Source of the DNA: Kalaharituber pfeilii
Lineage: Eukaryota > Ascomycota > Pezizomycetes > Pezizales > Pezizaceae
NCBI GenBank assembly: GCA_015179045.1
Contig: WHUZ01000065.1
Location: 62,001-126,000 of the forward strand
Length of the DNA stretch: 64,000 nucleotides
Direction of reading: 5' to 3'
Position numbers and translations under genes: made by a program. A model generated the notes under the pieces. That model worked only from the letters and a program-made list of their open reading frames with translations, did not search any database and had not been told where the DNA came from. Below, one piece after another: positions 3,049 to 61,400 of the stretch (its first letter is position 1; each line of letters starts with the position of its first letter).

Positions 3049-3112
3049 TTTTTTTTTTTTTTTTTTTTTTTGAGTCACGTAACCCCGCATACAGGCTACC
3101 AGCCTATGGCAG
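3049..3112 (-). mobile_element. Ultra-short retroinsertion, hairpin B (variant 2)
   Basis: Consists only of a T tract and the ~40-nt type B tail in minus orientation. It is flanked by GGAGAAACAGGC(T/A)AGGC, a 17-bp duplication with one mismatch, at 3032-3048 and 3113-3129. No coding sequence is carried. Confidence 0.9.
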
Positions 3113-3400
3113 GGAGAAACAGGCAAGGCCGGAGTTACAAGGGGAAGTTATGGCCGCGCCGGAGCTACGGAGATAGTGACAGCTGGAGGGATGTGACTGC
3201 CGAAGCTCCTAGAGGTCTGGTAAGCTAGCATCGATACTTTCTAGCAATTACAAGATACAGAAGGCGCGCAGGTTTGACTATAAGAAGGGCCAGCCAATAA
3301 TCCCACCGTGTTACGGTTTCTAATGATGACGTAGTAAATATGAGCGTGTAACATAGGACAACGCTTGGTGCTTCACCTTCGAGAGGGCAGCTTATTGGAT

Positions 3401-3985
3401 AATTTCTTTTTTCTTTTTTTTTTTTTTTTTTAATATCATTACTCGTATGCCGCCCTACGGGCTATGACGAGGTTTAGTTACATAGAGGAAGGTGGTTAGT
3501 GAAAAGGTAATGAAATAAACCCAAAGTCCTTCGTAAAAAAAGAAAACCCTGATTTGCGAAAGATAAGACATTCCAAAGGTCCTTAATGAGAAAAGAAAAC
3601 CCCCCCTGATATGATAAGAAATTATCGGTCCGCCTACTCCAGGATTTCCAACAGCGTGTCTCTGTCCCCATCTTTAGGGGGGTCCCGGATATCATTCTCC
3701 CCCCCCGGCCATTTTTTTTCTCCAGACTCTGCATGTGGTCATGGTGTGTGTGGTGGTCTCCAGTTCCTCCCCGCACCACCGGCATTCTGGGCTGTCCGCT
3801 TTCGCGATTTTGTGTCTCCAGTGTCTCAGTCCTTTGTTTCTGAGGATTCCGGCAAGGGTAGCGACCCTGGGTCCCAGGCGCTGTAGTGGTCGGTATCTGA
3901 GGCCTAGTCTGTTTCGCTCTGTGGCTCTTCTTGACATCGCAAGTTGTCGCATGCCTGTCAGTGACTATCTCGTCGATAATTTCAT
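3401..3985 (-). mobile_element. 5'-truncated LINE-A copy (zinc-finger end)
   Basis: Starts on the + strand with a T tract and type A hairpin, then runs into minus-strand coding sequence: TLAGILRNKGLRHWRHKI, then ECRWCGEELETTTH...C, then MAGGGE. The TTATTGGAT duplication at 3392-3400 and 3986-3994 fixes the ends. The coding frame is broken after the zinc finger. Confidence 0.8.
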
Positions 3986-4269
3986 TTATTGGATGGATAA
4001 GGATTTCGCCGGGTCGGTTTCTCGGATTTACTGGTAACTCGGCCTATCATTATTAATATCATATTGGACTTCACTTAATTTCTGACATCACACGGTACTA
4101 TTTCGGTCAGTGGAATAGTGCTCTGCAAGTGAATGCACACAAACCTGTCATACTGGATAAGGCTCGGGACCGGAAATCTTATGCAATATGACAGGTTTTG
4201 AAGCTTCCCCGGAATGTCTCCATCCAGTCACTTTTCTGACTGGATGGAAGTAGGGATAAAAGACGCTAG

Positions 4270-4614
4270 TAGTGAGCGGCACGAGCCGAGCCAGCTCGAG
4301 CTCAAACGAGCTAAGATCATGCTAGTGTTTTTCTTGCCAGCTCGCTAAAATGCTTAGCCAGTGCAAGGCTTCATAAACTGTAAATACCTAATATAGTAAT
4401 AATTAGAGACTTGGAGCTCATTCTGACCTACCAACAACTTCGAAATGCACAATTTAGCTGATAGTAGTGAGAAAGATGAAAATTTAGCTTAGTTTAGTTT
4501 AGTTTGTCAATATTATATATATAATCAATCTAGGCTCGAGCCGAGCTCACTTACCCACGAGCTGGCTCGAGCTCACTCTCGAGCTCGGCTCGAGCTAGCT
4601 CGTGCCGCTCACTA
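4270..4614. mobile_element. hAT-like MITE, copy 2
   Basis: 345 bp with TAGTGAGCGGCACGAG / CTCGTGCCGCTCACTA ends and a perfect 8-bp duplication GACGCTAG (4262-4269 and 4615-4622). The opposite inverted repeat of the host MULE (near 8564) still holds the empty site, proving insertion into the left end of the MULE. Confidence 0.9.
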
Positions 4615-4798
4615 GACGCTAGCTATATATGTATTTAAAGCATCCGCCAATCTACTAGTACATACAACCCATGTTCACACCCATGTTCACATCGTTGTCC
4701 CCCACGCCACAATACAAAGATGCATGGATATTTCGAAAAATTTGAACAATGCTTCCTTCACTGCCTCCCTTCTGCTACCGGTATTGCTTCAGCTTACA

Positions 4799-4893
4799 CC
4801 TCGTCTCATACAACCTCGCCTCATAGAACCTCGCCTCATAGAACCTCGCCTCATAGAACCTCGCTTCATACAACCTCGCCTAAAGCCTCGCCT
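4799..4893 (+). repeat. 15-bp tandem repeat in MULE 5' region
   Basis: About six copies of a unit like CCTCGCCTCATAGAA between the left inverted repeat and the first transposase exon. The outer copies are degenerate. Confidence 0.8.
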
Positions 4894-5823
4894 TACACTA
4901 TCTCGGCTCCAATCATCTCTTTTCAATGTCTGTATCTCTTCTCCGTGCCCACGAAATCATTGCTGCTATGCCGGCTGCATATTTAAAAAAGCCTGAGAAG
5001 GGTGAAAGATATGGGCTAAATCCCAGTGCTGCGAAAACCCGTTTGCAAGCTTATGCCTTTTCTCAAGGCTCCTTGATTTTAGTGGCAAGTGGCTCAGAGC
5101 AATGTGGAAGGATCCGCTATAGATGTGTCCACTATGGTAATGCTCCTCGCGATCGCTATAGTTTAACGGCCACTGCTGTGACCCAAAAGGAATATAAAGC
5201 GAGTGATGGTATGAGCAAGACTGACCCTGGAAAAATGCTTCGTCAACGCCAGGCCTTAGTAAGTCAATTATAAATATATCCATTTAGTTTGGATATTAAC
5301 TATTGAGGTAGCATCGACACCTCGGCTGCAAATGGGAGATATATATATCCCTACAGAAGGTGGAAAAGACCAGCAAAGGTAGTGTTCAAAAGGAATGGTT
5401 TATAAGAGTAAAGCAACTTGAGCATACCCATGAGATGGCAGAAAATTCATTTGATTATCTGGAATATTTTACATTCGACCAAGACTATGAGAAGCTTCTT
5501 GCAGAAGCTCATCGTCTTAAAGAAGCTAGTATTATTCATACACAAGCAAACAATATCCTTCTTGCACCTATTGGGCGTAAAGCCTATTACAACAATAGCA
5601 ATCCACGCAAACAAGTTGCTGATAGCATCTCACAAACTATGAATCGCATTTTTCAGTTATTAGACAATGCAAATATGCATTGTATTCCACACTATATAAC
5701 AATTCAGCAACAACAACTCAAACCCGAGGTCAAATACCTAGATGCCCTTTTCTTTACTGTTACGGCTAAGGTGGGACTTACTCGATAAGAAGAACACTTA
5801 CCCTGAACCATTAGTAAGACCAA

Positions 5824-8849: not shown

Positions 8850-8920
8850 AACAGGAATCGCGGCCACTCGTCGTAAGTACTGCTGGTTACGCCTCGCGCC
8901 GGATTGAACCCAGTCGCATC
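8850..8920 (+). repeat. Leader repeat, inverted partner at 12262-12335
   Basis: About 71 bp (CAGGAATCGCGGCCACTCG ... CCCAGTCGCAT) recur in reverse orientation at 12262-12335 with a few mismatches. It lies directly before the ankyrin reading frame and contains a GTAAGT at 8873, so it could be an exon/intron border of a gene leader or the end of an inverted-repeat element. Confidence 0.7.
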
Positions 8921-8922
8921 TC

Positions 8923-9705
8923 ATGCTTCTCGATGCTGTTCAAGTGAACAGCATCAATTACATACTAGCAAGAGAAAATTTTTTACCTAAAACACTTTCT
9001 AAGGCATTGGATGAGGCAGCCCGAAATGGACACATAAAGGCGTGGAAACGACTCCAAGAGAGAAGCGTCGAGAAAAATCAGGATGAACTCTTGCGTTGGG
9101 CAGCAAAACAAGGCTATGTCAAGGTTGTAAAGCAGCTCCTAGAAGCAGGAGCAGAGGTCAACAGAGCAGATGACGATGGGAAGACACTCTTGCACAGGGC
9201 TGCAGCAAATGGCCACATTGAGGTTGCAAAGCAGCTCCTAGAGGCAGGAGCAGAGGTCAACAGAGGCGATAAATTTAGGATGACACCCTTGTACAGGGCT
9301 GCAGCAGCTGGCCACATTGAGGTTGCAAAGCAGCTCCTAGAAGCAGGAGCAGAGGTCAACAGAGCCGATGACGATGGAGAGACACCCTTGCACAGGGCTG
9401 CAGCAAATGGCCACATTGAGGTTGTAACGCAGCTCCTAGAAGCAGGAGCAGAGGTCAACAGAGCCGATGACGATGGAAAGACACCCTTGCACTACGCTGC
9501 AGCAGCTGGCCACATTGAGGGTGTAAAGCAGCTCCTAGAAGCAGGAGCAGAGGTCAACAGAGCCGATGACGATGGGAAGACACCCTTGCACAGGGCTGCA
9601 GCAAATGGCCACATTGAGGTTGTAACGCAGCTCCTAGAAGCAGGAGCAGAGGCCAACAGAGCCGATAAATGTAGGGCGACACCCTTGCACTACGCTGCAG
9701 CATAG
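8923..9705 (+). CDS. Ankyrin-repeat protein, truncated by MITE
   Basis: The 260-residue frame starts at ATG 8923 (MLLDAVQVNSINYILAR). After a ~45-residue N-terminal part come six 33-residue ankyrin repeats and the start of a seventh. Each repeat has TPLHRAAANGHIEV(V/A) followed by QLLEAGAEVNRADDDGK. Repeats are nearly identical at DNA level (99-bp periodicity), which suggests recent unequal exchange or conversion. Ankyrin arrays mediate protein-protein binding. No catalytic or membrane segment is visible, so the partner is unknown. The TAG stop is created by the first bases of the MITE at 9703, so the natural C-terminus is missing. An upstream exon is possible, since the leader has a GTAAGT at 8873. 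In F-type fungal NLR and ankyrin proteins such near-identical repeats often form the sensor end, but nothing here shows an N-terminal effector domain. Confidence 0.75.
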   Translation: MLLDAVQVNSINYILARENFLPKTLSKALDEAARNGHIKAWKRLQERSVEKNQDELLRWAAKQGYVKVVKQLLEAGAEVNRADDDGKTLLHRAAANGHIEVAKQLLEAGAEVNRGDKFRMTPLYRAAAAGHIEVAKQLLEAGAEVNRADDDGETPLHRAAANGHIEVVTQLLEAGAEVNRADDDGKTPLHYAAAAGHIEGVKQLLEAGAEVNRADDDGKTPLHRAAANGHIEVVTQLLEAGAEANRADKCRATPLHYAAA

Positions 9706-10076: not shown

Positions 10077-10077
10077 G

Positions 10078-10716: not shown

Positions 10717-10879
10717 CATAGGATGGAGGTCATGAAATTACACTAAGTGTATTTAACTAGATAAGAGTGGAAATATATAAATGTTGGTACTATCGTACCC
10801 TATCTGAAATGGCTGCTGAAACTGCTGCCGAAATGGCTGCCGAAATGGTTACTGAAATGGCTACTGAAATGGCTAGGGC

Positions 10880-11630
10880 CGGCCATGCCTGTCAAATTCA
10901 GCTCATTCCACCTCATCTTGCACCATCGGGTCGGGCCAGCTATATGTGCCAAATTCAGCTCATGCCGTCAAGTCGGGCGTGCAATTCGTGGGAAATTGAG
11001 CCAGTCTACCTCACCTCACGCCGTCGGCTCAGATCTGCCATACCTGTCAAATTGAGCTCATTTTACCTCATCTCATGCTGTCCGGCCGGACCTGCCATAC
11101 CTGTCAAATTCAGCTCATTCCACCTCATCCCACGCTGGCAGGTCGGGCTGCCACATAAATCAAATTCAGCTCATTCTACATCATCTCGTGCCGTCGGGTC
11201 GGACCTGTCATATCTATCAAATTCAGCTCATGTTGCCATATCTCACACCGCCGGGTCAGGCATACCGTATGTTGCAAATTCTGCTCATTCTACCTCATCT
11301 CACATCGTCGAATAGGGCCTGCCAAACCTGTCGAGTTTAGCTCATTCTGCAGCATCTCGTGCCAGTAGGTTAGGCCCGCCATACCTGTCAAATTCAGCTC
11401 ATGGTGCCTAATCTCGCGCTATTATGTCAGGCCGGCTATACGTGCCAAATTTAGCTTATTCTGCCTCATCTCGTGGGCCGGCCATACCTGTCAACCTTCT
11501 CACGCCGTCGTTAGGTTGGGCCTTCCATGCCTGTCAAATTCAGCTCACTCTAGGGGCCGGACCTACCATATCTCTTAAATTCAACTCATTCTGCCACATC
11601 TCATGCTATCAGGCCGGACCTGTCATATCT
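10880..11630. repeat. Degenerate ~57-bp tandem repeat, block 1
   Basis: About a dozen units built on CCATACCTGTCAAATTCAGC then TCATTCTGCCTCATCTC then GCGCCGTCGGG. The block is preceded by a run of ATGGCTGCTGAAACTG-like 12-mers (10800-10880) and is cut on the right by the LTR starting at 11632. Confidence 0.85.
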
Positions 11631-11631
11631 A

Positions 11632-12260
11632 TGTAATAAATCGGTCCGGGTCGGGTCAGGGTACAGGACCCAGGTACGGGGCGGGCGGCAGGCGCCGGGG
11701 CGATTTCACAGCAGAGGCAGAGGCAGAGGCAGAGGCAGAGGCGGTCGGAGCTATGTGATACCGAGAGGTAGATGTATTTGAAAGCTAAATACACAACTTG
11801 GGTAGAATACAAGTTGTTGCGTGGAGAGGCATCAGAGAGGAGGGGGGAGGGCCTCTTTGTAGAAAGCCCTCGGTGGCAAATCCAAGCAAACAAGCAAACG
11901 AGCAAACAAACAAACGAAGTACATGGAAAACCGAGGAAACGACTGGAAGTACATGGAAAACCAAGGAAACGACGGGCAGTACATGGAAGGCCAAGGAAAT
12001 AACTGGAAGCAGGTAGAAGCGTCAGGAATATCCGGGAATGAGCTCGGCGATACCTGTCGCTGGTGGATTCCGGAGTCTTCCAGAAGGTTCTAGGGCTTTC
12101 CGGCTGGTTCTACGGCTTTCCGGCAGGTTCTGGGATCCGGGTTCTTCTAGCAGATTCTGGCAGGTTCTCGGGTTCGGGTTGTTAAGCGATTACCGGGATG
12201 CTGGCGGCCATGTTGCTTAAGTGACCTTACAGGTGCAGGGATATATACCGGAGTGCTAGA
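11632..12260. repeat. Truncated LTR, same family as 57886-58670
   Basis: Starts TGTAATAAATCGG and aligns through the GGCAGA hexamer run, ACAACTTGGGTAG, the ACATGGAAAACC repeats, the TTCCGGCAGGTTCT repeats and GGGATATATACCGGAGTGC. Homology stops after GCTAGAAG at ~12260, ~160 bp before the LTR end. The right side joins the inverted leader repeat. Confidence 0.8.
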
Positions 12261-14021: not shown

Positions 14022-14084
14022 CCCTGCCATGGCCAAGTGCTACAAGCGGGGTTATGTGATTAAAAAAAAAAAAAAAAAAAAAAA
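14022..14084 (+). mobile_element. Ultra-short retroinsertion, hairpin B
   Basis: Begins exactly at CCCTGCCATGG, ends GGGGTTATGTGATT plus ~23 A, and is flanked by a perfect 15-bp duplication ATAACACAGGTAACA (14007-14021 and 14085-14099). The perfect duplication implies a recent event. Confidence 0.95.
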
Positions 14085-14394
14085 ATAACACAGGTAACAT
14101 GCTGGGTCTCGCTGGTAACGCAGATGACCTGATGGGTCTCGTTAAGCATGTAGTTGACATGATTGAGCTCATTGGGGACGCAACTTACTCTATGGTCTCG
14201 TTGGGGTGCACTGCAACTGGAGTACCACGTTGTCAACTCTGTTTACATATCCTCATGTGTTCTCAATTCGGTATATAATGAATTATTTATTTATTACTAG
14301 CTATCACGATATATACAGGTACCATTTCACCACCCTTCCATGCCACACTCCACTGCATCCCTGTAGATTAAGTCTTTTATCCCATATCTCGCGC

Positions 14395-15060
14395 TGCAGA
14401 GGAAGGCCTGCCATACCTGTTAAAGTGAGCTCATGTTCACATATTTCATGATGTTGGAAGCGACCCGCCATACCTGTAAACTGAGCTCACATTGCCATAT
14501 CTCGCGCCGTCGAAATGGCCCGTTGAATTGACCTCATTCTGCTATTCTCGTATCGTCGAAAGGGCCCTGCGGTAACTATAAGATTGAGCTCATGTTCACA
14601 TATCTCGCAACTTTAAAAGAGATCTGCCATACCTGTGAATTGAGCTCACATTGCCACATCTTGCACTGTTGAAAGGGCCCTACGGTACCTGTCAAGTTAA
14701 TCCCATGTTCGCTCATCTCGCAATGTCGAAAGGGGCCTGCCATACCTGTTGTACTCAGTTGATTCTGCCACATCTCGTGCTGTCAAAGGAGACCTGCAAT
14801 ACTGGCAAATTGAACTCATTCTGCTACTCGAAAGGGCCCTGCAATGCTGTTAAGTTATCTCATGTTCACACATCTCATGACATTGAAAGGGACCCGCCAT
14901 ATCTGTGAATTGAGCTCACGTTGTTACTTTTTGCACCGTCGAAAGGGCCCTGTGATACCCTTTTAATCTCATGTTGCCATATCTCGTCCTGTCAAGAGAG
15001 GCCTGCCATACCTGTTAATAGAGCTCATTCTATAGCATTTCGTGCTGTCAAGGAAGACCT
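14395..15060. repeat. Degenerate ~57-bp tandem repeat, block 2
   Basis: Around ten units of the same family as block 1 (GCCATACCTGT..., GAGCTCA..., CATATCTCGC...), more diverged and with GTCGAAAGGGCC at the unit end. Short open frames across it are by-products of the repeat. Confidence 0.8.
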
Positions 15061-15374: not shown

Positions 15375-16215
15375 CCTATCTTTTGGGTGGGCAAAACTTC
15401 GCTAAATTCGATGCACTAGTTTCACTGTGTGGCGTCCAGCCAAGAGGGTCTGTGTACTATCAAATTCCTGACCTCAAGCAATGGCCAGTACATATCTTAG
15501 GCACGGGCACAGCGCATATCTATTCAATGTCTTTATATCTACTAGAACGTTCTCGAAGTTATTTATTACAGTACTTGAAAGCAAGAAGACAATCCTACTC
15601 GAGGAAGGCAAGCAGACGAGTTCCGTGGTAGCTTACCTGGAGACACCAAAGGACATCGGGAAAGTCAGACTCGGAGGAAGGTGGTTGAAGGCAGACGTGT
15701 ATGAGACAAACAGGGGAAGGAAGTAGACAGGTCTTAGACACGGCTCTGGGTGGAAACTACCCGCATCACGAAGGACACGCGGGAAACACATGTATTTAGT
15801 GAATTCCTTTTCTTTAGTTAATATATACCTCGCCATAGCCCATAGGGCGGCACGCGAGTAATGAAATTAAAAAAAAAAAAAAAAGTACTTGAAAGGAAGG
15901 TCAATGCGCTTGTAGCGAGATATTAAATACTATTATGAATTTGTGCAATTAATATGTCGTATACCACTTTGTCAGAACCAGTATTATTTTTACTATTTCC
16001 ACAGAATGACAACAGCATAACTATTAGATCATGTAGTTAGTCCTAGCAGTCAATATAATATGGGCTTATACAGTCTCATTAGTCTCGTAGTAGGCGAGTG
16101 CAATCCCACAAGTAAATGTGTCATTGTAAATTTGATATGATTGATCGGCATGACAAGGACCAAAAGTAGTGAAACTAGTGCATCGAATTTAGCGAAGTTT
16201 TGTCCGCCCAAGAGA
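15375..16215. repeat. Element bounded by ~45-bp inverted repeats
   Basis: TGGGTGGGCAAAACTTCGC...GATGCACTAGTTTCACT at 15380-15424 recurs inverted at 16165-16213. Without the ORF1-tail insertion (15582-15883) the unit would be ~540 bp, the size of a non-autonomous DNA element. No clear target duplication. Confidence 0.55.
15582..15883 (+). mobile_element. ORF1-tail element, copy 1
   Basis: Insertion flanked by AGTACTTGAAAG (15570-15581 and 15884-15895). It encodes the end of an ORF1-like protein (KKTILLEEGKQTSSVV, AYLETPKDIGKVRLGGRWL, stop at 15726) and then a ~120-nt 3' UTR with CGCGGGAAACACATGTA, the type A hairpin and an A tail. No reverse transcriptase is carried, so it depends on a LINE in trans. 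The protein resembles the segment before the zinc knuckles of LINE ORF1. Confidence 0.8.
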
Positions 16216-17126: not shown

Positions 17127-17191
17127 GGTTTTTTTTTTTTTTTTTTAATTTCACGTGACCCTGCATGCAGCTTTCCGCCATGGCAGGGCAA
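17127..17191 (-). mobile_element. Ultra-short retroinsertion, hairpin B
   Basis: A T tract plus the type B tail, ending ...CCATGGCAGGGCAA, between GTAACATAGGG copies at 17116-17126 and 17192-17202. Confidence 0.9.
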
Positions 17192-18169: not shown

Positions 18170-19587
18170 CGCCATACTGTACCAGTCCAGCGCATTCTCA
18201 TTTTGCCCCATCTTACACCATCGAGAGTAATCTGCCATACCTGTAAAATTGTAAATTGAGCGCATTTTGGCATATCTCGTACCATCAAAGCAGGTCTTGT
18301 TGTATCTGTCAAATTAAGCCATACCGCCTCACTTTGCACCATAGAAAGGGGCCAGCCTTAACTGTGAATTGAGCTCATTTTACCATGTTCCACGCTGCCA
18401 GGTGGGTCCTGCCGTACCTGTCAAATTTGGCTCATTCTGCTGTTCTCACATTGTGGAAAGAGTCCGGTGATACTTGTCAACTTGAGCTCATTCTGCCTCA
18501 TCTCACGCCATCGAAAGGAAGCTGTCATACCCTGTTAAATTGAGCTCATTCTGCCTCATCTCACACCATCGAGAGAGACTGCCATTCCTATTGAATTCGG
18601 CTCATTCTGCTGCATCTCACATTATTGAGGAGCTGTCATGCCTGTCAAATTATGCTCGCCCTGCTGTATCTCATGTTGGCAAGAGAGATCTACCAATCCC
18701 TGTCAAATTCGGCTTATTCTGCTGCATCTCCCAGGCTGAAATAGACCTGCCATCCCTGTCAAATTCGACTCTCGTTCTGCTGCATTTTGTGCTATCGAAT
18801 AACTATCAAATTGTGCTCATTCTACTATATCTCATAATGCGAAAAGAGTCCTATTATACCTGTCAAATTTGGCTCACTCTGCTACTCTCCTGTGGAAAGG
18901 TGCTACTATACCTATCAAATTGAGTTCCGTTTTACTACATCTCACGCTGGTAAGAGAGGGAAATTTGGCTCATTCTTTTGTATCTCGTGCCGTAGAAGAG
19001 TCTTGCCATACCTATATACTTGTTAAAGTTAGTTTATTCTACTGTATCTTGTATTGTCAAGGGAGACCTACACACCGGTCCAATCGAGTTCATTTTGCTG
19101 CATCTCGTGCTATCAAGAGAGACCTACTCTTTTTTATTTTTTTATTTTTTTGATTTCACCTAACTCCGCTTGCAGCTGTTCGCCATGGAAGGGAGAGAGA
19201 CCTACTATACCTGTCAAATTCAGCTCTTCTGCTGCTCTTACGCTATGGAAAGAGTCCTGTAATACTTGTCAACTTGAGCTCATTCGGCCACATCTCGCGC
19301 CATTGAGAGAAAGCTGTCATACCTGTTAAATTGAGCTTATTCTGCCTCATTTTTGCCTGTCAAGGTCATATCTGTCAACTTGACCACATCCATCCTCATC
19401 TTGCGCCATTGAGGGAGACTGTTATACCTATTAATTCAGCTCATTCTGCTGCATCTCACACCATTAAGGAGCTATCATGCCTGTCAAAGTGCCTGTCAAA
19501 TTCGGGTCATTTTGCTGCATCTCGTGAGGTGAAATAGACCTACCATACCTATCACATTTGACTCGTTCTGCTGCATCTCGCACCATT
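18170..19587. repeat. Degenerate ~57-bp tandem repeat, block 3 left part
   Basis: Some two dozen units of the same family, here with TCATTCTGCTGCATCTC and GCCTGTCAAATTCGG as the commonest words. Interrupted by the ultra-short insertion at 19129-19193 and cut at 19587 by LINE-B. The array resumes at 22907. Confidence 0.85.
19129..19193 (-). mobile_element. Ultra-short retroinsertion, hairpin B, inside the array
   Basis: A T-rich tract plus GATTTCACCTAACTCCGC...CCATGGAAGGG, flanked by AGAGAGACCTACT at 19116-19128 and 19194-19206. Confidence 0.9.
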
Positions 19588-22500
19588 TGCCTGGCTGGAG
19601 AGAGAGTAGGGACATGGAGGAGAGAGGTAGAAGGGCGATTGAAAGAATCGAGGATTGATCTAGTTTGGTACCGAGGGGTGAGGGGGGTAGAAGTGGGGTA
19701 CCTAGATTTAGGCTCGGACCATTCAGCACTGGTAGTGGAGTTCGAGGAGAAGAAAAGAGAGAGAGAGGAAGAAGAGGTGAGAGTACGTATAGACTGGGAG
19801 CGGATGGAGAAAGAGATTGAGGGGTTGAATGGAGAGTGGGATGAGCAGGAGAGAAGAGAGTGGGCGGAGAGAATGGGTGAGGGGGATGCATACCAGAAAC
19901 TCAAGAGGTGGAAGAGATCACTTGAGAAGAAGGTCAGAGTGAGCGGAAAAAGCAAGAAGTGGTGGAGCGAGGAGATTGAGGAGCTGAGAAAGGAGGTAAA
20001 CAGGCTTGCAAGAGGAGGGGTGGGAGCGCGTGCAAGACTGGTAAATGAGGAACGAGTGAGGGGTTGGAAGGCGGCAGTACAGAAAATGAAGTGGAAGATC
20101 CGAGAGGAAAAAAGAAGGTGCTGGAGAGAGTTCATAGAAGAGGAGGGAGTTAGTGATCCATGGAGGTTAGTGAGGGTGGCGAAGGACCCCTTCGGGAGAG
20201 GAGAAAAGATGGAGACTCTCATGGATGAAGAGGGGAGAGAGCTGGAAGGGGATGTAGAAAAGGTGGAAGCTCTGGTGAGGAGGAACTTCGCCTTCAAAGA
20301 GGAAGAGGAGAGGAGTGGAGAGGCGGAGAGAGGGGGAGAGAATAGAAACAGACTATGGAGGAGTATGGAGGAAAGAAGGAGAGTAGAGGAGGAGGTGAGA
20401 GCGGCCCTAAGAGGCACAAAAAACACATCAGCACCAGGTCCAGATGGAATCGGATATCGCCTCATCAAAGCGGCATTGAAGACACCATTCGGAGACCAGC
20501 TGGTGAGCGAGGTGGCAGAGAAGTGGATGCAGAACCAGATACCCAAGGAGTGGAAGGAAATGAAGGTTGTCATGATACCAAAACCAGGCAAGGATATTAG
20601 AACAACGAAGGCCTGGAGACCGATCAACCTGATAAACTGCATCAGCAAGATCGGAGAGAAGGTAATGGCGAACCGGCTCCAGAGGGAAACGGGACTCTTC
20701 CATAAACTGCAGCTGGGTGCGAGGAAGGGGAGAAATGCAGTGCAAGCAATGGCGAGGGCGGTGACAAAGGCACAGAGGTGCCTGCACAGAGGGGGGAGGG
20801 CGGCATGGGTCACAGCAGATGTAAAGGGGGGGTTCAACATTGTTAGAAGGGAGGTGGTATTGAGAAGGATAGAGGAGAAGGGGAGTGAGGAGGTAAGAAA
20901 GAAGAGGTGGTGGCTGGAGGACTTTATGGGGACAAGAGAATTTAGTGTGGAGTGGGATGGAAGAGTGAGAGGAAGGGGGAAGGCGAATGTGGGGGTCCCA
21001 CAGGGGTCCCCACTATCGCCGGTGCTCTTCTTGATTTTTATGGCACCAACAATGGAGAAGATTGAGAGGAGAGTAAGGGGGGTAGCGACAGGGGTGGAAG
21101 TTGAGGCGCCCTCGTATGTGGACGACATAGCAGTGACAGTCCTGGACTGGCATGGCTATTGGGACATGGGGAGACTGAGAGAGAGAGTAAAAAAGGAGGT
21201 GAAAGCAGTAGCAGAGGAGGATCAAATCCCACTGGAGGAGTCGAAGTGGGAAATGATAACGTTTGGCGTGGGGAAGAGGCAGAAGAGAGAGGGGGAGTTC
21301 CTAAAGTGGCTGGGGGTTATTTTTGATGAAAACTTAACCTTCACGGCACACTGGAAAAACAGGGTAGGTAGGGCGAGGAGTCTGGCAGGAGCACTGGCAG
21401 GATTGGGAAACAGGAACTGGGGTATGAGCCCGAGGAGCTGGAGGCAAGTATATACGGGCATGATAAGAGCGGTGGCGATGTGGGGGAGTGAAATCGGATG
21501 GCGAGGTCAGAAGGAGTGGAGAAAGGAGGTAGAACGGTTGCAGCTCCGAGTCCTGAAGAAGGCAGCTGGAGGAGGGAGAGGAGCGGGGGCGGAGGGAGTG
21601 AATGCGGTGTGCGGGGTGGAGGAGGCGGAGGTGGTCCTGGATGCGGCGCAGGCAAGGGCAATCATCCGGGAGGTGGAGTCACCGTCGGAGCTAGCGGAGC
21701 TGTGCACGGCAGACTTTAAAGAAGGTAATGAGGAGGTAGAAGAAGAGGCGAGAAATTGGAGAGACTGGGAGGTGCAGTGGGCACTGGCGGAGAAGGATGG
21801 GTATGAAACGGTGTTGGACCGCTGGCAGGGCCAGTGGGCACGATTCTCAGAAGAGGGGGAGGAGATTTCATGGGGAGGAGGATGTGAGGTGGTAGAGGTG
21901 GAGACTGCGGAGAGGCTGGGGAGGAAGAAGGGGGGCCGAGAGGAATGGGAGACCTCGATTGAGGAGGCTGGAAGGGAGAGAGCCGTCTTCTTTTCAGATG
22001 GCAGTAAAATCGAGGATAGCAAGGTGGGGGCAGGTGTGTGGGGGAGGTCGGCAGTGGTGGCGGAGGTGGTGGGAAGAACAGCGACGGTTTTCGACGGGGA
22101 GGTGAGGGGAGTGAGAAGAGCACTGGAGAGTGCACCGGAGGAGGTCCTAGTCCTGATCTGTCTGGATTCGGAAGCCGCTGTCATGGCGATTCAGAAGGCG
22201 GGCAGGGAGGGAAAGGGAAAGACGGAGGATGTGAGAAGGGTGGTGAATGCAGTGGCGAGAAGAAAGAGGAAGGGGGGGGATGCGAAACTGTTGTGGGTAA
22301 AAGCTCACATCGGAATCGCAGGCAATGAGAAGGCGGATGAGTGGGCGAAGAAGGGGACGGTGATGCAGGGGAAGGAGGTGGCCACCGGAAGTGGGGTGCG
22401 CCAGAGGGTGAAGGCGTGGAGGAAGGAGAAGAGAGAAGTGGAGGGCTTTGGAGGAGGAAAGGTCATGGAGTGGAATAGGATAGCAGTATCCAATTTCACT

Positions 22501-22746: not shown

Positions 22747-22875
22747 AAGCTAGGAGAGCGGGGGCGATGGCGCGTGGGGGCCATGTACGTAGAGAGTTAG
22801 TTTAGCCTGTCTCCGGGCTATGAGGGCTTGCCCAGGGACCCTGCCATGGCCAAGTGCTACAAGCGGGGTTATGTG

Positions 22876-36744: not shown

Positions 36745-36784
36745 TCCCTCGCCATAGCCCATAGGGCGGCACGCGAGTAATGAA

Positions 36785-41975: not shown

Positions 41976-42962
41976 TTCTTTCTTTCTTTCTTTTTTTTTA
42001 ATATCACGTCACCCCGCTTGCAGCTGTTCGCCATGGCAGGGCCCCTGGGTCTAAACCCTCTATGCTCGGGGGCAAGCATATCTATCTATCCCTCCACCGC
42101 CTACTCTACATACGAGACTGACGCCCCGTCCCCGCCGCACCTCCACGCGGCAATTGAAAATAACTACATCATTCTTCCCCCGCCACCTCTACAAACGAAA
42201 AATCGCCCCCTCCCCCGACTCTAAGAAATCCCTGCACCTTGAGCCCAGCGAAACGCCCCTTCCCACTCAAGCCTTCAGTGAGTGGAACAGTGGTTCCAGG
42301 ATGCCCACGTCCTCCCCATTTTCCTGCTGTTCCACCCACTTCTTCTTTTCAAAATCTGTCTACACTCCCCACCCCTCCGGGTATGCCACCTCTTCACACC
42401 TGAACGCCAGGCGGTCCGCCGTCTGTCTTTCCCCGCATCTGCAGGTCGCCCCCTCCGCCGCCTTGCCACCCTTCACATCCCACTCCTTCGTCATCCCCTT
42501 GCCCATTCTCAGCCTTGTGAATGTGGTGGCCGCCCCCCCGCCCCACCTCATCACTGCTCCGCCCCCGAAACCCGGTTCACTCCTTTCGGCTGCTCGCAAC
42601 TGCTTCCACTTCTGCCGCAGCCTCCCCTCCGTCACCACGGATCTCCCAATCCTGCCCGCCTTCTTTTTTGCCTCCGCGTCCGCCGCCTCGTTGCCGGCTA
42701 TCCCAATGTGCGCTTTCACCCACATCAGTTCACCTCTCCTTTCCTCTTCCTTTCTGTGATTTGGTTTACCACTCGTCTCAGATCACAGGTTCTGGCCTTG
42801 CCCTAGCTCCCCCCTTCTTCACCGCCGCAATTGCAGCCTGTGAGTCCGTCAGGATTACTAGCGTGGCTAGTGCTGGGACCGACATTTCCAACCCCATTCT
42901 CATCCCCCTCACCTCTCCATCCCGCCCTGCCATGGCGAACAGCTGCACGCGGGGTCACGTGA

Positions 42963-42997
<35 letters not shown>

Positions 42998-45140: not shown

Positions 45141-47843
45141 TTTTTTTTTTTTTTTTTTTTTATATCATTACTCGCGTGCCGCCCTGGGGGCTATGGCGAG
45201 ATTAGTTACATGAGATTAGATACATATGAAGGTAGAAGAAAAGGAATAAGAAAAGATCCTGTGTGTCTCCTATGCCCCTGCCCACTCCAAGATGTCTCTT
45301 AGTGGGTCTGTGTCCTTGCTCTTCGGAGAAGTGACCAAGTCTTGCATGCCTCCTGGCCACTTTCGTTTCCATGTCCTGCACCTAGTGAGCACATGTTCAG
45401 TAGTCTCCTCCTCCTCCCCACACCATCGACATTCTGGGCTGTCTCCTTTCCCGATTTCGTACTGCCATTTCCGTAGTAACTTGCCGCCCAGTATTCCTGC
45501 TAGTGTGGCTATGTGTCGACTTCCAAGTCTTGTCAAGGGACGGTAGCTGAGCCCTAGCCGGTTTCTCTCTGTGGCGCGCTGATGTCTCGAGGTTTGTCGT
45601 ATCCCATCTTCTGTTATGGTTTCATCTTGGTAGGGGAGGCATGTGCCTATTTTCGCAGCTGTGTCTGCCTCGGTGTTCCCTTTGACTCCTATATGGGACT
45701 TGACCCACATCACTGCAACGTCCCAGTCACCTCGGTCTGTTCTCGCTTTCCAGGCGTCTCTAACCAGTTTTGCCGGTCCTTTGTGGGTGGGCTCTCCCTG
45801 GGCGATCTTTAGGAGCTTGGATATCGATACCTTAGAGTCGGTTATGATCAGGAGTTCCCCAGCTTGATTGCGTAATGCTTCGCTCATGGCAATGAGTTCT
45901 GCATCATTGACAGTAGTCTGTTCCCCTAGGTATGTGGAAGTAGAGGTGTCTTTTGCGTAGGTGCCTAGGCCTGTCTTGTAATCTATCCTGCTCCCGTCAG
46001 TGTAGACGGAGTTCCACCCCTCGTCCTCGGCATTGGCTATGGCATTCACGAACTCGAGCTTGTCAGCGTCCGCAGGTAGTGCTGGTAGGATGGCTAGTGG
46101 TAGGGGGTTGTTGTGTGTGAGAGACCCCGTAGGTACCTGCACTCATTATCCCTGTTTTGGATTATCTCATCGTGGAACCGTAGGGCCCTGGCTTCTACCC
46201 TCTGGCGTTCTCCTTCTAGGAATGTTTGGGCTGATTCTAGGTTGGCTATTCCTTCGACCACGTCTCGCCTGGTACCCCACGGGGCTGCAGTAATCTTCTG
46301 TGCTACTGTGTATTGCCATTTTTCTATGTCTTTGATCTTGGTTGCTGGTGGAGACTGTCTTGAGTAGTCCTGCCATGCCCAGCATCCCCATGTGGCGTTT
46401 GTGCGTGCGATGCTTGTATATATCTGTCGTTTCTTGCCTGGTGTGAGGCGAGTTAGTCTCGATGCCACTCCCCATGCTGCCTTCCCGAGAAGTAGTCTCT
46501 TCTTATGATGTCGAGTAAATTTTAGCTCCCAATCTACCGTCAATCCGGTTAGCCTATAGTCAGGGCCTTTTACCCCAATTATTAGTGCCTCGGACTTGTT
46601 TGGGTCAATTTGGAATCCATGCTCTGCTGCTGTTTCGGTGATTTTTGCCCTGTGTATCTTTATGGCTTGTCGGAGTTTTAGGAGTGACGGATGTGAGATT
46701 ACACTGTGGAAATCATCGACATATGACCTGGTGAAGTTGTGTTGGTCTACCTTCTCTGCCACAGGTGCTACACCTATCAGGAATAGTACCGGGGATAGTG
46801 GAGATCCTTGCGGTGTACCATCTGTCATCTTCCCTGTAGCTCTCCTTTTGCCATCCCATGTCATGTTGTAGTTGGTCGGCATCATAAAAGCTTCTACAAA
46901 GCTCGCTAGTTTATGGTCTGTTTGTCTTATTCGAGCAACCACCTTGTCCCTTCGAAGAAAGTTAAAAGCTGACTTAATATCGTCTCCCACTAGGGCTACC
47001 CATTCTTTCTTCTGTAGCCTCTTCTCTGTCTCCTTCAGCACTTGTCGCTGTAGATCCTCTGCACCTCGATGGCGTCTTCCTCCAAGCTGAGTGTCTCTGA
47101 AAAGGTCGTCTTTTCTTTGTAGCAGGTCTGCGATGACTTTTTGACCTAGCTTCGCTACTGTGTTCAGAAGCGTTATGGGTCTCCAGCTCCCTACCTGATC
47201 TCTGGGTTTCCCTTTCTTGAGTATCATAACCACCTCAAAGCCTCTGGCAAAATCGTAGTCACCGTTTATATATTCTACAATTCTCTCTCTTACAGCAGTC
47301 CATAGAGTCGTACCCTTCAGAAGCTTCAGTAAGCCATATTGTATGCCATCGGGTCCCGGTGCTGATCTTGGTTTAGCTTTTGTTAGTGCCTTTTCTATCA
47401 TCATCCTGGCTTGATCTTTTTCGACGGTGAGTCCTGTTGGTCTGATAGTAGTGGTCGTAGTTTCTTGTCCTTGTGATATGAAGTTGCGCTCAATCAATAC
47501 CTTAGCTATCTCCTCGTCTGAGCCTGGTATCCCCATGAGGTCTCTTTGGCGGAAAGGGTCTCTTGCTAGCCTGAAAATATCCCATGGTGAGGTGATTCTG
47601 TCCTCTTCTAAGAAGCCTTCCCAGTATTCCTTCTTCTTATCTCTTATTATCTCCCTAAGTAGTCTTCTCGCTCTTGTTTTCTCTGTGTGGCTAGCCCCGC
47701 TCTTTAGAATGGTTCTGGTCATTTGTCGTGCCTCTTTTACCTCTTTGTCGAACCATCGTTTCGTGCGTCTGGTGATGTATGCATCTTTTGTAAACTTTTG
47801 GCTTAATTCACATAGTAGTTCATACCCATCAATACCTTCGGCT
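45141..47843 (-). mobile_element. LINE-A retrotransposon, 5'-truncated, 2.7 kb
   Basis: Perfect 14-bp duplication ATCAATATACAACT at 45127-45140 and 47844-47857. T22 at the + strand left end is the A tail. Next to it lies the type A hairpin (CTCGC...GCGAG, GCCC/GGGC) and ~90 nt of 3' UTR. ORF1 and endonuclease are absent. Confidence 0.95.
45270..47843 (-). pseudogene. LINE-A ORF2: RT and RNase H with one frameshift
   Basis: Frame 1 (47843-46094): linker, then SAPGPDGIQYGLLKLLKG and VVMILKKGKPRDQVGSWRPI (fingers), GDDIKSAFNFLRRD (first RT Asp), GTPQGSPLSPVLFLIGV, RSYVDDFHSVIS (catalytic YVDD), GFQIDPNKSEALIIG. Near 46094-46142 the reading shifts by one base. Frame 2 (to 45270): SVYTDGSRIDYK, TVNDAELIAMSEALR, LLIITDSKVSISKL, MWVKSHIGVKGNTEADTAAK (complete RNase H set), RNRLGLSYRPLTRLG, and ECRWCGEEEETTEHVLTRC (C-x2-C-x10-H-x4-C finger), DPLRDILEWAGA stop. 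Programmed frameshifting is unlikely as it falls between domains. A mutation is simpler. Confidence 0.9.
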
Positions 47844-48222
47844 ATCAATATACAACTAGGGGAGGCCCTTTGATTACAAGACAATTGCCATTGGTGTAAT
47901 AGAGCTAAAAAAGAGTAGTATGTTCAGTCTGCTGAAATATTGTATGAGAATCCCATACAAATAGATGCCAAGACATTGTTACCAATTTTGCGGTGCCATA
48001 ATTCCTTGAGACTGCTTTCTTTCAGCAGGCAGAGGTGCTAAACATGAAGAACAAGTATTTATTTAGTGTCTCTAAATAGCGCTTACAAAATTCTGCTCTA
48101 GTGGTTGAGGTACACGCTCTTCTGCGTGGCTAGTTTTGGTGGGAAAGTGCGTCGAATTGTGGTGTGCGTCGAGATGTGGTGACACACAGTAGTGTTATTT
48201 GTTTATATTTAATGTAACTAAA

Positions 48223-50000: not shown

Positions 50001-50249
50001 GAATATTTACTTGCATAGTACTACTGTACTCCACCAGCACTATGTAGTTATAAGAATTCAGTATCATATGGATATAATAATACTCTAATAATATACATGA
50101 AGAGCAAGCATCGGTTAGAAATCTAAAATACGCATTCATGGCGGTTATTGATGTCATCTATAATAGCCTTCTGCATTTGGGCTAGTAGTAGGTTTAGAAC
50201 ATGACTTCATGAGTTTTATGATAACTTGTCCTAGATCACCTGCTGATTG

Positions 50250-50311
50250 TTTTTTTTTTTTTTCCTTTTTGAATATCATTACTGGTGTGCCGCCCTATAG
50301 GCTATGGCGAG
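50250..50311 (-). mobile_element. Ultra-short retroinsertion, hairpin A
   Basis: CTGCTGAT(T/G)G at 50240-50249 and 50312-50321. T15-CC-T5 tract, then GAATATCATTACTGGTGTGC...GGCGAG. Confidence 0.9.
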
Positions 50312-52227: not shown

Positions 52228-52316
52228 TTTTTTTTTTTTTTTTTCAATATCATTACTCGTTTGCCGACCTTGGGGCTATGACGAGATAAAACACAGGAGA
52301 TAAATACAGAAAAAGA
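52228..52316 (-). mobile_element. Short retroinsertion, hairpin A plus ~35 nt
   Basis: Perfect AAGCAGCTCACT at 52216-52227 and 52317-52328. Confidence 0.9.
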
Positions 52317-56373: not shown

Positions 56374-57493
56374 TGTCACGCGGCGGCAAGCTGGTGCTGC
56401 TAAGGGATACGACCGGTTCAGGGTAACAGTAGTTTTGCAAGCGCTGAATGGCAGAAGCCTGACAAACTTGACAGGAGAGGTTTGACAGGAGCAGTTCAGC
56501 CGTTCCAGTTCAACGGCGATGGCAGGCTATGGTGAAAAGGCAGAGAAGACCAAGTACTGAATTGGATCTAGGGATTGACAAGAATAACAAGAACATATAG
56601 ACTGCGAGGAACCATATGGGTCTATTAAGGAGACAAGACAACAGACAAGGAGAGAAGGAACTATTTACATGAGGGCAAGATAGAGCCTATATATACATGA
56701 TAGGTTTATTACCTAAGAAGCATAATACAAAGGTAGAAGCAGCGACGAGGGCAGCAGTAAGAACAGAGTAGCGAAGGCAGAGTTTTCATGGCAGGCGGGC
56801 GATACTGGCAGGCGGGCGATACTGGCAGGCGGGCGATACTGGCAGGCGGGCGATACTGGCAGGCGGCGATACTAGCAGGCAGGCTGTACTGGTGAGCGGG
56901 CTATACTAGCAGGCGGGCTGTACTGGCAGGCGGGCTATACTAGCAGGCGGGCTATACTAGCCGGCGGGCTATACTAGCCGGCGGGGCGTACTGGCAGGCG
57001 GGCTATACTAGCAAGCGGACTATACTAGCAGGCGGGTCGTACTGGCAGGCAGGCTATACTAGCAGGCGGGCTATACTAGCAGGTGGATTATACTGGCAGG
57101 CGGGCTATACTGGCAGGCGGGCCATACTGGCAGGCGGGCCATACTGGCAGGCGGGCTATACTGGGAGGCGGGATACGGTCATGGCTTGCTGGTGGTCATG
57201 GCTTGCTGGCGGTCGTGGCTTGCCGGCGGTCGTGGCTTGCCGGCGGTCGTGGCTTGCCGGCGGTCGTGGCTTGCCGGCGGTCGTGGCTTGCCGGCGGTCG
57301 TGGCTTGCCGGCGGTCGTGGCTTGCCGGCGGTCGTGGCTTGCCGGCGGTCGTGGCTTGCCGGCGGTCGTGGCTTGCCGGCGGTCGTGGCTTGCCGGCGGT
57401 CGTGGCTTGCCGGCGGTCGTGGCTTGCCGGCGGTCGTGGCTTGCCGGCGGTCGTGGCTTGGTGTACGGAGACTGTAGGGAGCGGGCCGTGACA
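56374..57493. repeat. Solo LTR with two minisatellites, 1120 bp
   Basis: TGTCACG...CGTGACA with CTTAT at 56369-56373 and 57494-57498. Holds a 17-bp GGCGGGCTATACTGGCA array (~56788-57175, two dozen degenerate units) and a 17-bp CGTGGCTTGCCGGCGGT array (57185-57455, ~16 near-identical units). Because 17 is not divisible by 3, all frames give the same 17-residue repeat. These open frames are not genes. Confidence 0.9.
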
Positions 57494-57885
57494 CTTATAA
57501 TATACTTATATATATTATATATTTATTTATAATATGTAAAGAATATTAAAACTTTCTAGAAATAAGAAAAAGTAAAAAAATTCTTAAAATATAGAATAAA
57601 ATAAAGATATTATAAATATCTTCAAAAGATATAAGAACTAGTATCTGTATATGGCTTGAAAAATAAAAGTATAGGAGGTATAAGTAATTTAATCTATTAT
57701 ATATTCTTATATACTAAGTATATTTACTTTATACTATAATATATCTTATAAAATATGAATTATAGTATACTATTCCTTACAACTTCAATTACTATATAGA
57801 GTTCTAGAACTGTTAAAAATAAATCTTTACTATATGCTTTAGCTGTAAGAACTCTTTTTACTTATATTTAAGCCTATTGTATCTC

Positions 57886-58670
57886 TGTAATGAACAGGTC
57901 CGGGTCAGGGTACAGGATCTGGGTACGGGGTAGGCGGCGGGCGCCGAGGCGAGGTCACGGTGGAGGCGGAGGCAGAGGCGGTCGGGACTATGAGATATCG
58001 AGACGTAGATGTATTAAAAGGCTAGATACACAACTTGGGTAGGAAACAAGTTGTTGCGTGGAGAAGCAAGAGGGAGGAGGGAGGAGGGCCTCTTTATAGA
58101 AAACCCTCGGTGGAAAATCCAGGCAAACAAGCAAACAAGCAAACAAGCAAACAAACGAAGTACATGGAAAACCGAGAAGCGACTAGAAGTACATGGAAAA
58201 CAAAGGAAACGACAGGAAGTACATGGGTGACCAGGGAATGACTGGAAGCAGGAAGAAGCGTCAAGAATATCCGGGAATAAGCTCGGCGATACCTGTTTCC
58301 AGCAGATTCTACGGCTTTCCGGCAGGGTCTATGGCTTCCGGCAGGGTCTATGGCTTCCGGCAGGTTCTATGGCTTTCTGGCGGGTTCTGCGGCTTTCCGG
58401 CGGGTTCTGGGGATCCGGGTTCTTCTAGCAGGTTCTGGCAGGTTCTTCGGTTCGGGTTGTTAAGCAATGACCGGGATGCTGGCGGCCATGTCGCTTAAGC
58501 GTGCTCACAGGTACAGGGATATATATCGGAGTGCTAGAAGGAGTGCGGCGAATTGCAAGGGTGTCAGGGTCAGCTGCACGTGTACGAGTACTGGCGAGTA
58601 GTACGTTGGTTGCCAGTATAGGACCGGAGCTGGAGGGTCTGGGGCGAGGGGTCCGGGTTGGATTGTTACA
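57886..58670. repeat. Solo LTR, 785 bp, complete copy of the 11632 family
   Basis: TGTAATGAACAGG...GGATTGTTACA with ATCTC at 57881-57885 and 58671-58675. Internal (AACAAGCA)n, ACATGGAAAAC and TTCCGGCAGG(T)TCT repeats. Confidence 0.9.
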
Positions 58671-59079: not shown

Positions 59080-59980
59080 TGCAGTTGTACGATCGTTAAT
59101 TCATTGCCATCGCCCAGCCTGTTTCAAATCAAAAGTAGCAACAGACAAAAAGCAAGAATAAAATAAATAGCACAATTTAAGACAGGTCAAAAAGAAGTTA
59201 AAGTGAGAAGGAAAGGATAAAAAGCAAAACTCGGGAGCAGCTGAAGCTCATGCATATCGATACTGCACTCGAGTACTACTACTACTAACCTAACTCGGGG
59301 TAGGAATACTTTCAAGTCACTCACGTGCAATTCACATGAGTAGTTCCGTTACTATTGAAATTGCCTGAGAAGCCAAATGACAAGCAGTGACTTTTGGTGG
59401 AGGTGGGGTTGCATCAATAAACAATGGATTCTGCAATGCGATAACTCTCTACAACCACTTTGACAACTGGTAGTTTTTACTCAGCTGATTGCCTTGCCCG
59501 TGAGTCTTTCGGGTAGGTTTGACAGTCGCAATAATTTTTTTTAACGGTCACGTACTCGAGTACATAACTCAGAGTTTCCATCCGTAGACAAATTATGCGG
59601 GTTTCCCGTACAACAACTTCCAGTTATCACACAACCACTCTTCACTGGCCATGACATACCGAGATATCCCTGTGTGCACGTGAGTACCTTGGCGCTGCTT
59701 GTTTCAAGCTTTCCAGCACCCTGAATTACATTTGGTTAGATTCCATTGCCAATCTACGATATTGGCTAGGTGCAAGCTAAGAATATCTTGGTTGGGTCGC
59801 GCGTTGCAACGATCGCTCAAGATATGACTATACCTACTTTATTTGGTTAGTTTTCAATTCGGGGCGAGGTGATTAATGTAAACTGGCATGCCCTTATGTA
59901 CTCCAGTGATCCGTAGAACCTCTTTCACATAATCAAACCGCATTGAACAAACGTTCTTCGGAATGTGTATCACGGCACTT
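59080..59980. other. No gene recognised
   Basis: AT-rich in 59130-59230. No protein-like frame over 60 codons. Confidence 0.4.
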
Positions 59981-59993
59981 GCTTCGGTTCCAT

Positions 59994-60258
59994 TTTTTTT
60001 TTGTTTTTTTTATATCAGTACTCGCATGCCGCCCTATGGGCTATGGCGAGGTGTTTTATTAATAATGAAAGAAAAAATGAATACTAAGTACATGTGGTGC
60101 CCGCGGTGTTCATGTCTGAAGCGGGTGATTAGTCAAAAAACGTGTCCGTGACCTTCCTATTTCCTTCCTCGTACACGTTTGTCCGCAGCCACCCTCCTCC
60201 GGGCCTGACTTTCCCGATTTCCGTTGGCGCCTCCAGGTAAACTATCATGGAACTTGTC
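59994..60258 (-). mobile_element. ORF1-tail element, copy 4
   Basis: Perfect GCTTCGGTTCCAT at 59981-59993 and 60259-60271. T tract, hairpin A, 3' UTR with the ACATGTGGTGCCCGCGGTG motif (reverse of the shared CGCGGGC.TCACATGTA word), then reversed ORF1 end (YLEAPTEIGKVRPGGGWLRT). Confidence 0.9.
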
Positions 60259-60271
60259 GCTTCGGTTCCAT

Positions 60272-61325
60272 AACCCTTAAAAATCCGCGCGACAGTACGC
60301 GCAGCTGCATATCATCCGGCCAATGGATAATTCATTTCGGCGGTGCATAGGCAAGGCTGCGCTTCTTTAGTTTCCTGGTTACCTGGTTACCTGACGGTGA
60401 GCCTGCCAAGGAAGACTGCTGACGTTACAACATGCAGAATTGACTGTGCTATGATTTTCTCTTTTGCATCCTTCACCAGTGTGTTCCCACCAACGCTTTC
60501 CTATTCCGCCCAGTCTCTCCTCCCCAGTGCCTGTGTCCGCTACCTTTTTTTTGCCCTATGCGCTACGACAAAATTACGTACAAAGCAGATAATACTGTAC
60601 AAGAGAATAAACAAATTAGGATGGCAAAAGTAGGAAATCAGTCGTGCCATTTCTCCAACATCATCTCGAAAAGAGGCTGGGCATGACCAAACACTCATAC
60701 ATTGTCAGTCGCCCAATTGCTGGGCATGACCAAACACTCATACATTGTCAGTCGCCCAATTGCACACCAGTCGCCCACACTACCTACGAGGTAGGCACAC
60801 AAAGGGTGCTCTAACTACATCAGCTATCGCAATGCTCAAGTGGGTACTTGCTGTATCGGCATGGTAGGCTATCGATCTTGTCCCAACATCCCTGTCGATG
60901 CATGCAGCGCAGTTGAGTAGTGGAGTCAGATAGTCAGATCCGATCCGCTGGGTGGTGATCCAGCTAGGTGGTAGGTTAGATTCTGTGCTACCTCACATTC
61001 CCAGGGTCTCCAATTAATCGATCCGCGTGGGACGGCACAAGCAGAAAACTAACAAGCAGGCGGGACGATGATGCCTCAAACATGCATATCTCTACATTTT
61101 TGCAAGCACATGCACCATTAACACTGCGGGCGCTCGCACCAGCTCAGAATTGCATCAAAATAAGAAATCATCACGGCGAGTACCTTCCTACCCAATGCCA
61201 TAAATTTCTCTTCTTACTGGTTGTTCTTACGCAATCCCTACAGAACATGCCGAGATGCAGTAATTGTACTCACAAAGAATGGCGGTTTGCAACTAACAAC
61301 TTCAAGCGTCACCAATTCCGGAACC
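60272..61325. other. No gene recognised, one direct duplication
   Basis: No protein with motif. A 43-bp exact tandem duplication lies at 60676-60761. Confidence 0.4.
60676..60761 (+). repeat. 43-bp tandem duplication, two identical copies
   Basis: GCTGGGCATGACCAAACACT... ending GTCGCCCAATT, at 60676-60718 and 60719-60761. Confidence 0.95.
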
Positions 61326-61337
61326 TCATATGTTATC

Positions 61338-61400
61338 TTTTTTTTTTTTTTTTTTTTTTTAATATCATTACTCGCGTGCCGCCCTGTGGGCTATGGCGAG
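61338..61400 (-). mobile_element. Ultra-short retroinsertion, hairpin A
   Basis: T22 plus AATATCATTACTCGCGTGCC...GGCGAG. Perfect 12-bp TCATATGTTATC at 61326-61337 and 61401-61412. The insert starts precisely at the hairpin base. Confidence 0.97.

Follow-up and report, generated by a model that had tools for sequence, protein, structure and literature searches.

Hairpin-and-tail retroinsertions with 5′ ends at stem bases in the desert truffle Kalaharituber pfeilii

What sets the 5′ end of a retroinsertion, and how short can such an insertion be? A 64,000-nt stretch of DNA from the desert truffle Kalaharituber pfeilii (hereafter the window; C323:62001–126000 of a 78.0-Mb assembly) raises both questions with 13 minimal insertions that span 38–93 bp, tail included, the body of the minimal unit being a ~30-nt stem-loop and a ~10-nt linker. 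This unit does not stand on its own but forms the 3′ tail of resident long interspersed nuclear elements (LINEs). We observe A tails, target site duplications (TSDs), uninterrupted relatives of insertion sites, hairpins that end LINEs, and 5′ ends at stem bases.

Searches with nhmmer of the window and 20 × 10 kb of contig C223, a hairpin-blind sample of 52 hairpins that forms part of ~300 kb sampled in total, found two related stem-loop types (41 in the window, 11 in the C223 pieces, and 0 in the reversed sequence used as a control). Contig C223 also encodes a lariat-debranching protein 100% identical to one from K. pfeilii, a member of the Pezizales. H1 is a ~30-nt stem-loop typically followed by TAATGATATT and A, and H2 is a ~30-nt stem-loop typically followed by TTACGTGA and A; their variants are H1b, H2b, and H2c. 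Genome-wide pattern matching with ≤3 mismatches gave 2455 H2, 2134 H1, 547 H2b, and 727 H2c hairpins, with 0 for each reversed control pattern. In the predicted fold of the five variants, an internal loop separates a basal stem of 5–7 bp from an apical one of 3–7 bp (z −1.3 to −2.95). Among 25 distinct H1-class stems, hand-picked for variety, 92.9% of pair cells hold standard pairs, and 13 cells are changed on both sides compared with 3.5 in shuffles that ignore relatedness (0/500 reach 13). When the partner column is shifted by 1–3, the two-sided changed cells fall to 0–4. Such conservation of the stem, with changes on both sides, bears at most indirectly on whether a LINE enzyme would need the tail stem-loop.

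The 5′ ends of the insertions are not spread along the element, as they are in truncated LINE copies, but pile up at two stem bases. Our main set comprised 209 hairpins with enough flank (one duplicate was dropped, and 20 loci picked for the absence of known LINE sequence upstream are included). Copies were called minimal when the TSD scored ≥6 at an offset of up to 6 and its left copy ended −2 to +6 nt from the stem, and the null was obtained by swapping downstream flanks. Minimal copies with TSDs and a 3′ simple-repeat tail, as in short interspersed nuclear elements (SINEs), account for 63/209 hairpins, versus 21/4158 false matches with swapped flanks (0.5%). Their ends lie at offsets of 1 nt (24 copies), 0 (11), 2 (10), 3 (8), 4 (4), −1 (3), and −2, 5, and 6 (1 each), and their TSDs measure 6–16 bp (median 11). 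Farther out, at 7–150 nt above the stem, where ends were accepted at a TSD score ≥8, six TSD-supported ends were found, at 26, 31, 42, 50, 63, and 123 nt (null 2/1042). Applying the threshold of 8 to both zones leaves 52/209 at the stem base and 6/209 at 7–150 nt above it. In the hairpin-blind sample, 11 of the 14 ends within 150 nt sit in a 9-nt zone at the hairpin base (score ≥8; binomial P = 9e-12), or 13/16 if the cut is set at 6 for near ends only. Loci drawn by hairpin alone were minimal in 16/60 cases for H1 and 9/40 for H2; 4/40 H2 loci and 9/56 nonredundant H1 loci, having neither LINE upstream sequence nor a TSD, were left undecided as to class. Long H1 copies have ends scattered at 26, 31, 50, 63, and 123 nt and beyond, and no second pile-up was seen among the 13 with a resolved end. 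The nonrandom pile-up claimed in the original prediction is borne out, and the smooth 5′-end distribution named beforehand as speaking against it is not what the sampled loci show.

The minimal insertions of the window come from several hairpin types. Those of H1 lie at 31143–31206 (minus strand, 13-bp TSD), 33497–33569 (minus, 8-bp TSD), 36745–36837 (plus, 11-bp TSD, with a 51-nt A run), 37295–37332 (plus, 11-bp flanking direct repeats), 50248–50311 (minus, 8-bp TSD, score 6.5), and 61338–61400 (minus, 12-bp TSD), and an H1b copy lies at 27124–27176 (plus, 13-bp TSD, 1 mismatch). H2 copies occupy 17127–17191 (minus, 11-bp TSD), 19129–19193 (minus, 13-bp TSD), 34629–34692 (minus, 13-bp TSD), and 42921–42993 (plus, 10-bp TSD), joined by H2b at 3044–3114 (minus, 17-bp TSD, 1 mismatch) and H2c at 14022–14084 (plus, perfect 15-bp TSD). 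All 13 of the insertions first listed as having target duplications were confirmed (13/13), each starting at a ~30-nt stem-loop's base, 11 by the automated TSD finder, 3049 by our first finder, and 37295 by its exact flanking repeats. The stricter finder misses 3049, probably owing to the longer H2b stem and a CTC ahead of the tail, and the 63 minimal copies counted above contain no H2b copy. The distance of ~10 nt from the hairpin base first given for the 5′ ends was conservative, minimal ends lying at −2 to +6 nt, and a correction applies to 37295, whose hairpin lacks its 3′ arm. As that copy and a sampled minimal insertion, L138, illustrate, the 3′ end of minimal insertions can also be short. 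L138 and the insertion at window positions 19116–19206 are separate events at nearly the same spot in closely similar flanks of a ~57-bp repeat, hinting at a target preference.

A second pile-up occurs in LINE tails that carry AGGGG just above the H2 stem (G-type). Folded in isolation, a stretch of these tails is predicted to form a 7-bp stem with a 4-nt loop that starts 38 nt upstream. We selected 28 loci for the AGGGG upstream tail (16/28 and 12/158 places of two listings) and required a TSD score ≥7, which 14/28 reached. Of these 14 resolvable ends, 11 fall 36–40 nt up, within 2 nt of the stem base at 38 (P = 9e-19), and the other three lie at 9, 93, and 244 nt. The 5′ ends in AGGGG-type tails thus often coincide with this stem's outer base.

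The same hairpins terminate LINEs that encode reverse transcriptase (RT), so that the 3′ tail of the minimal copies is shared with resident elements. An H2c-tailed LINE at 19528–22868 (plus strand) has a frame for RT and RNase H at 19528–22746 (1072 amino acids; Pfam RVT_1, PF00078, 1e-24; RNase_H, PF00075, 5e-11), and the H2c stem of its terminal hairpin, at 22839, starts 93 nt past the end of that frame. An H1-tailed LINE at 45171–47923 (minus strand) has its terminal hairpin at 45200 and a frame at 46094–47923 that holds the RT domain only (RVT_1, 3e-22). The two RTs share just 28% identity, and the stems are therefore the 3′ ends of at least two distant LINE families, which we provisionally take to be Tad1/I-like from their domains and by analogy with published fungal LINEs. 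Hairpins and linkers of minimal copies recur in long copies of H1, of H2c, and of H2 with A just outside the stem (A-type). Longer H1 insertions in the window lie at 52228–52316 (minus strand, 12-bp TSD, 5′ end 31 nt above the hairpin) and 15582–15883 (plus strand, 12-bp TSD, 5′ end 247 nt above the hairpin), and an H1 hairpin at 3434–3471 (minus strand) belongs to a longer LINE 3′ end, with no convincing TSD within 700 nt. At 42004–42041 (minus strand), the hairpin search also found an H2 hairpin that terminates a decayed LINE 3′ end of G type; the sequence upstream of it is 77.7% identical to locus L154 over 399 nt.

Minimal copies appear to be numerous. An exact H2 24-mer occurs 732 times in the genome, 245 times with one LINE upstream pattern and 28 times with another (with slight overlap), so that at least 459/732 have neither. 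Twenty of these remaining loci, taken in list order with previously sampled places skipped, proved to be 16 minimal copies (including L134, whose 7-bp TSD at 6 nt is weak), 1 LINE copy, and 3 that were unresolved. Extrapolation suggests a few hundred minimal copies of the exact-24-mer H2 hairpin and on the order of a thousand when the types are pooled.

Uninterrupted relatives mark several insertion sites. The joined flanks of the minimal insertion in L104 match uninterrupted LINE-like copies across the join at C11:145896–146015 (91%), on C297 (81%), and elsewhere, whereas against the two filled copies (C359, C348) the match breaks into two pieces whose 14-base overlap is the TSD. Insertion 27123 has an uninterrupted relative at 26054–26196 (79% identity), as does the L043 insertion at window positions 58331–58488 (91%). 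When the joined flanks of 47 minimal copies were compared with the sampled sequence, 13 matched across the join, a few of them to their own locus only. Two pairs of loci, C359:21892–22120 with C348:162871–163100 and L130 with L131, each hold one insertion with matching flanks at two places, reflecting either segmental duplication or unmerged haplotypes. At L085 (C12:109148–109455), a tRNA-Gly gene predicted by ARAGORN has a minimal H2 insertion immediately upstream of it, and the TSD of this insertion, by eye, covers the first bases of the gene.

How might ends come to lie at stems? In their tails, TSDs, and parents, the inserts match target-primed reverse transcription, a mechanism established for LINEs. 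With slightly better than even confidence, we read the minimal insertions as copies of template RNAs in which a stem-loop fixes the 5′ end; a resident LINE RT recognizing the terminal stem-loop would mobilize these RNAs, often in trans. The enzyme of a resident RT-bearing (Tad1/I-like) LINE would recognize the 3′-terminal stem-loop and insert its template by target-primed reverse transcription; many templates would be 3′ tail fragments and not whole LINE mRNAs. Trimming from the 5′ end, a known activity of nucleases, may halt at the stem or at enzyme bound there, or cleavage may occur beside the stem. RT would then copy the fragment to its end (the stem and 1–2 bases), sometimes add 1–3 bases, and integration would follow. 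In LINE tails with a stem-loop 38 nt upstream, a second quantum of both stems, ~78 nt plus tail, would arise in the same way. Stops at the outer 5′ base, seen at two different stems, are explained more easily by an RNA that ends there, since an RT traveling 3′ to 5′ would enter a stem on the 3′ side.

The bases just outside the stem are family specific and tend to fit the LINE of each family. Where one base or more separates TSD and stem in an H1 minimal copy, −1 is C in 15/18 (34/44 in other H1 loci) and −2 is A in 8/11. All three H2c minimal copies scored (3/3) have A at −1, as in the H2c LINE. For H2 minimal copies, −1 is G in 22/27 and A in 4/27, and −2 is the LINE's G in only 2/12 and C or T in the other 10, as though the template stopped at −1. 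Small as these numbers are, we read them as copying that runs one (H2) or two (H1) bases past the stem, followed by untemplated bases. The original prediction had offered either a processed minimal RNA or habitual stopping by RT; the second pile-up and the family-specific outside base favor RNA ends set by structure, and the RT stop fares less well. A/G contrasts bear on the same choice. Identical 38-nt H2 hairpins have minimal-to-long ratios of 3:24 with A at −1 and 6:2 with G (Fisher P = 0.0012). If the hairpin alone caused the stop, the ratio would be independent of the −1 base, and the difference speaks against such a stop. Sampled A-type LINE copies are up to 99–100% alike, and in our reading the A-type LINE acts mainly in cis, on its own mRNA, whereas G-type tail fragments are mostly taken up in trans. 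The surplus of minimal G-type copies would then suggest that tail fragments of one LINE lineage move in trans via active LINEs with the same hairpin.

Several observations weigh against stem-set fragment ends. Counting three unresolved G copies as long softens the A/G contrast to 3:24 versus 6:5 (P = 0.009). For −1 and −2 the counts are small and the source tail is assumed, and H2 minimal copies mostly have G at −1 whereas the commonest LINE tail has A. Although that abundant A-type tail also has stems upstream, most of its sampled copies are long; in L032 and others it carries GGAC(UUCG)GUCC, a very stable tetraloop, 6–17 nt above the terminal stem, and again the sampled copies are mostly long, which does not fit stems alone setting the ends. 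For the second stem, 14/28 loci gave no TSD of score 7, the null of 56/1079 per copy means that one or two of the 14 ends may be chance, and neither the 38-nt stretch (z +0.4) nor the longer tail containing it (z −1.1) folds better than shuffles. Within the H1 stems, the pairs with two-sided change number 3, a count reached by 231/500 shuffles, and the further pair types number 9, reached by 376/500. Finally, a complete hairpin is seemingly not strictly needed: the tails of 37295–37332 and L138 begin within the 3′ arm of the stem or ahead of it.

The main rival, which stays live although we think it unlikely, is abortive target-primed reverse transcription, in which the template is the full LINE mRNA and RT releases after copying the stem-loop it holds. 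It would account for sharp ends close outside the stem in H1, H1b, H2, and H2c, and release after each stem would yield two pile-ups as well, a further point against fragment templates. The stem is probably where the enzyme binds, as an analogy with zebrafish L2-clade LINEs suggests (PMC4176376). Set against release are the additional pile-up at the stem 38 nt upstream, minimal-to-long ratios that differ for identical hairpins (less so when unresolved copies are counted as long), and the general expectation that a polymerase pauses on entering a stem and not on leaving it.

Decidedly less probable is a dedicated tiny transcribed element, a headless SINE whose ~42-nt RNA would start at the hairpin base and come from one or a few loci. 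G at −1 in 14/16 minimal copies from the 20 loci without known LINE sequence upstream would fit such a source, though their tail letters vary, as would the exact 24-mers, at least 459/732, that lack the two LINE upstreams searched for. Minimal copies occur in H1, H1b, H2, H2b, and H2c, however, so that several sources would be required, and varied linkers among G-type copies argue for many. Scans of the window found 0 tRNA genes (ARAGORN) and 0 Rfam families, with 0 Rfam matches to E 1 for one copy; no RNA polymerase III head (tRNA, 5S, or 7SL) appeared in these scans, in which promoter boxes were not scored. Ordinary random 5′ truncation, with the pile-up an artifact of copy selection, fits the varied lengths of longer copies in the same families but is hardly credible beside 11/14 ends in a 9-nt zone of a hairpin-blind sample and a swap null of 0.5%.

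Two further candidates were rejected. A pure DNA transposon or miniature inverted-repeat transposable element (MITE) does not fit with A tails on one side only and with TSDs that vary in length. Termination by a hairpin in the nascent cDNA would, we reason, put ends ~8–10 nt beyond the stem, and the observed mode is 1 nt.

The window holds other repeats and frames. A diverged array of the ~57-bp repeat, at about 10857–11637, 14368–15049, 18192–19587, and 23014–23406, is broken by several retroinsertions and a LINE. A 320–340-bp element, MITE-like by eye, is present in two opposite copies (about 927–1244 and 4272–4612) with inverted ends GTGAGCGGCACGAG...CTCGTGCCGCTCAC. A frame for a Mutator-like element (MULE) transposase spans 24620–26023 (467 amino acids), an ankyrin-repeat frame at 8908–9705 is built of 99-bp DNA repeats, and 17-bp units form a tandem array at 56751–57515.

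We propose tentatively, with somewhat less than even confidence, that an RT-recognition stem-loop and an A tail alone are a sufficient mobile unit, giving headless, promoterless micro-retroposons: 3′ pieces of LINE RNA, bounded by structure, that would be moved in trans in discrete sizes of ~42 nt (one stem) and ~78 nt (two). Among copies with the same G-type tail they would, by extrapolation from our samples, be commoner than longer ones. If this is true, the structure of a template RNA can dictate the 5′ end of its retrocopy, the minimal in vivo cargo of a LINE enzyme is a ~30-nt stem-loop and tail, and the cause of 5′ truncation and the smallest mobilizable RNA become testable in one genome. 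Units of 40 nt tend to escape repeat annotation, and the recent insertions that it may overlook would, on this reading, form a large class.

In its chemistry the process does not depart from ordinary LINE/SINE biology; we have seen no description of the headless minimal unit or of the quantized 5′ ends. No hairpin-only retroposon is named in the literature searched, which is weak evidence of absence, subscription papers having been mostly outside its scope. Stringent 3′-tail LINEs with tail-sharing SINE partners are reported from several clades including Tad1 (PMC4176376, PMC3747384), among them the fungal Tad1-clade pairs Mg-SINE with MgL/MGR583 and SINE2-1_BG with Tad1-24_BG (PMC3747384, PMC4176376). 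As in the truffle, a LINE and a short nonautonomous partner share a 3′ tail in such pairs, with a stem-loop in the stringent type; Mg-SINE and SINE2-1_BG are listed as tRNA derived, whereas the truffle units are headless and start at the stem base. AfuSINE2/3 of Aspergillus fumigatus (PMC5063351) are likewise fungal and nonautonomous, and one 3′ end resembles that of a Tad1 LINE, but they are tRNA or 5S related, with polymerase III promoter sequences marked and one tRNA entry of 140 bp. Tailless tRNA-related truncated structured RNAs are also mobilized by a LINE enzyme; truffle units differ in having A tails and LINE-derived hairpins. 5′-truncated LINE copies have the same 3′ end, TSDs, tails, and truncation from the 5′ side. 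Such copies are given in a review as 100–1,000 bp long and cut at varied positions (PMC3747384), whereas the truffle units have a body of ~40 nt and ends quantized at stem bases.

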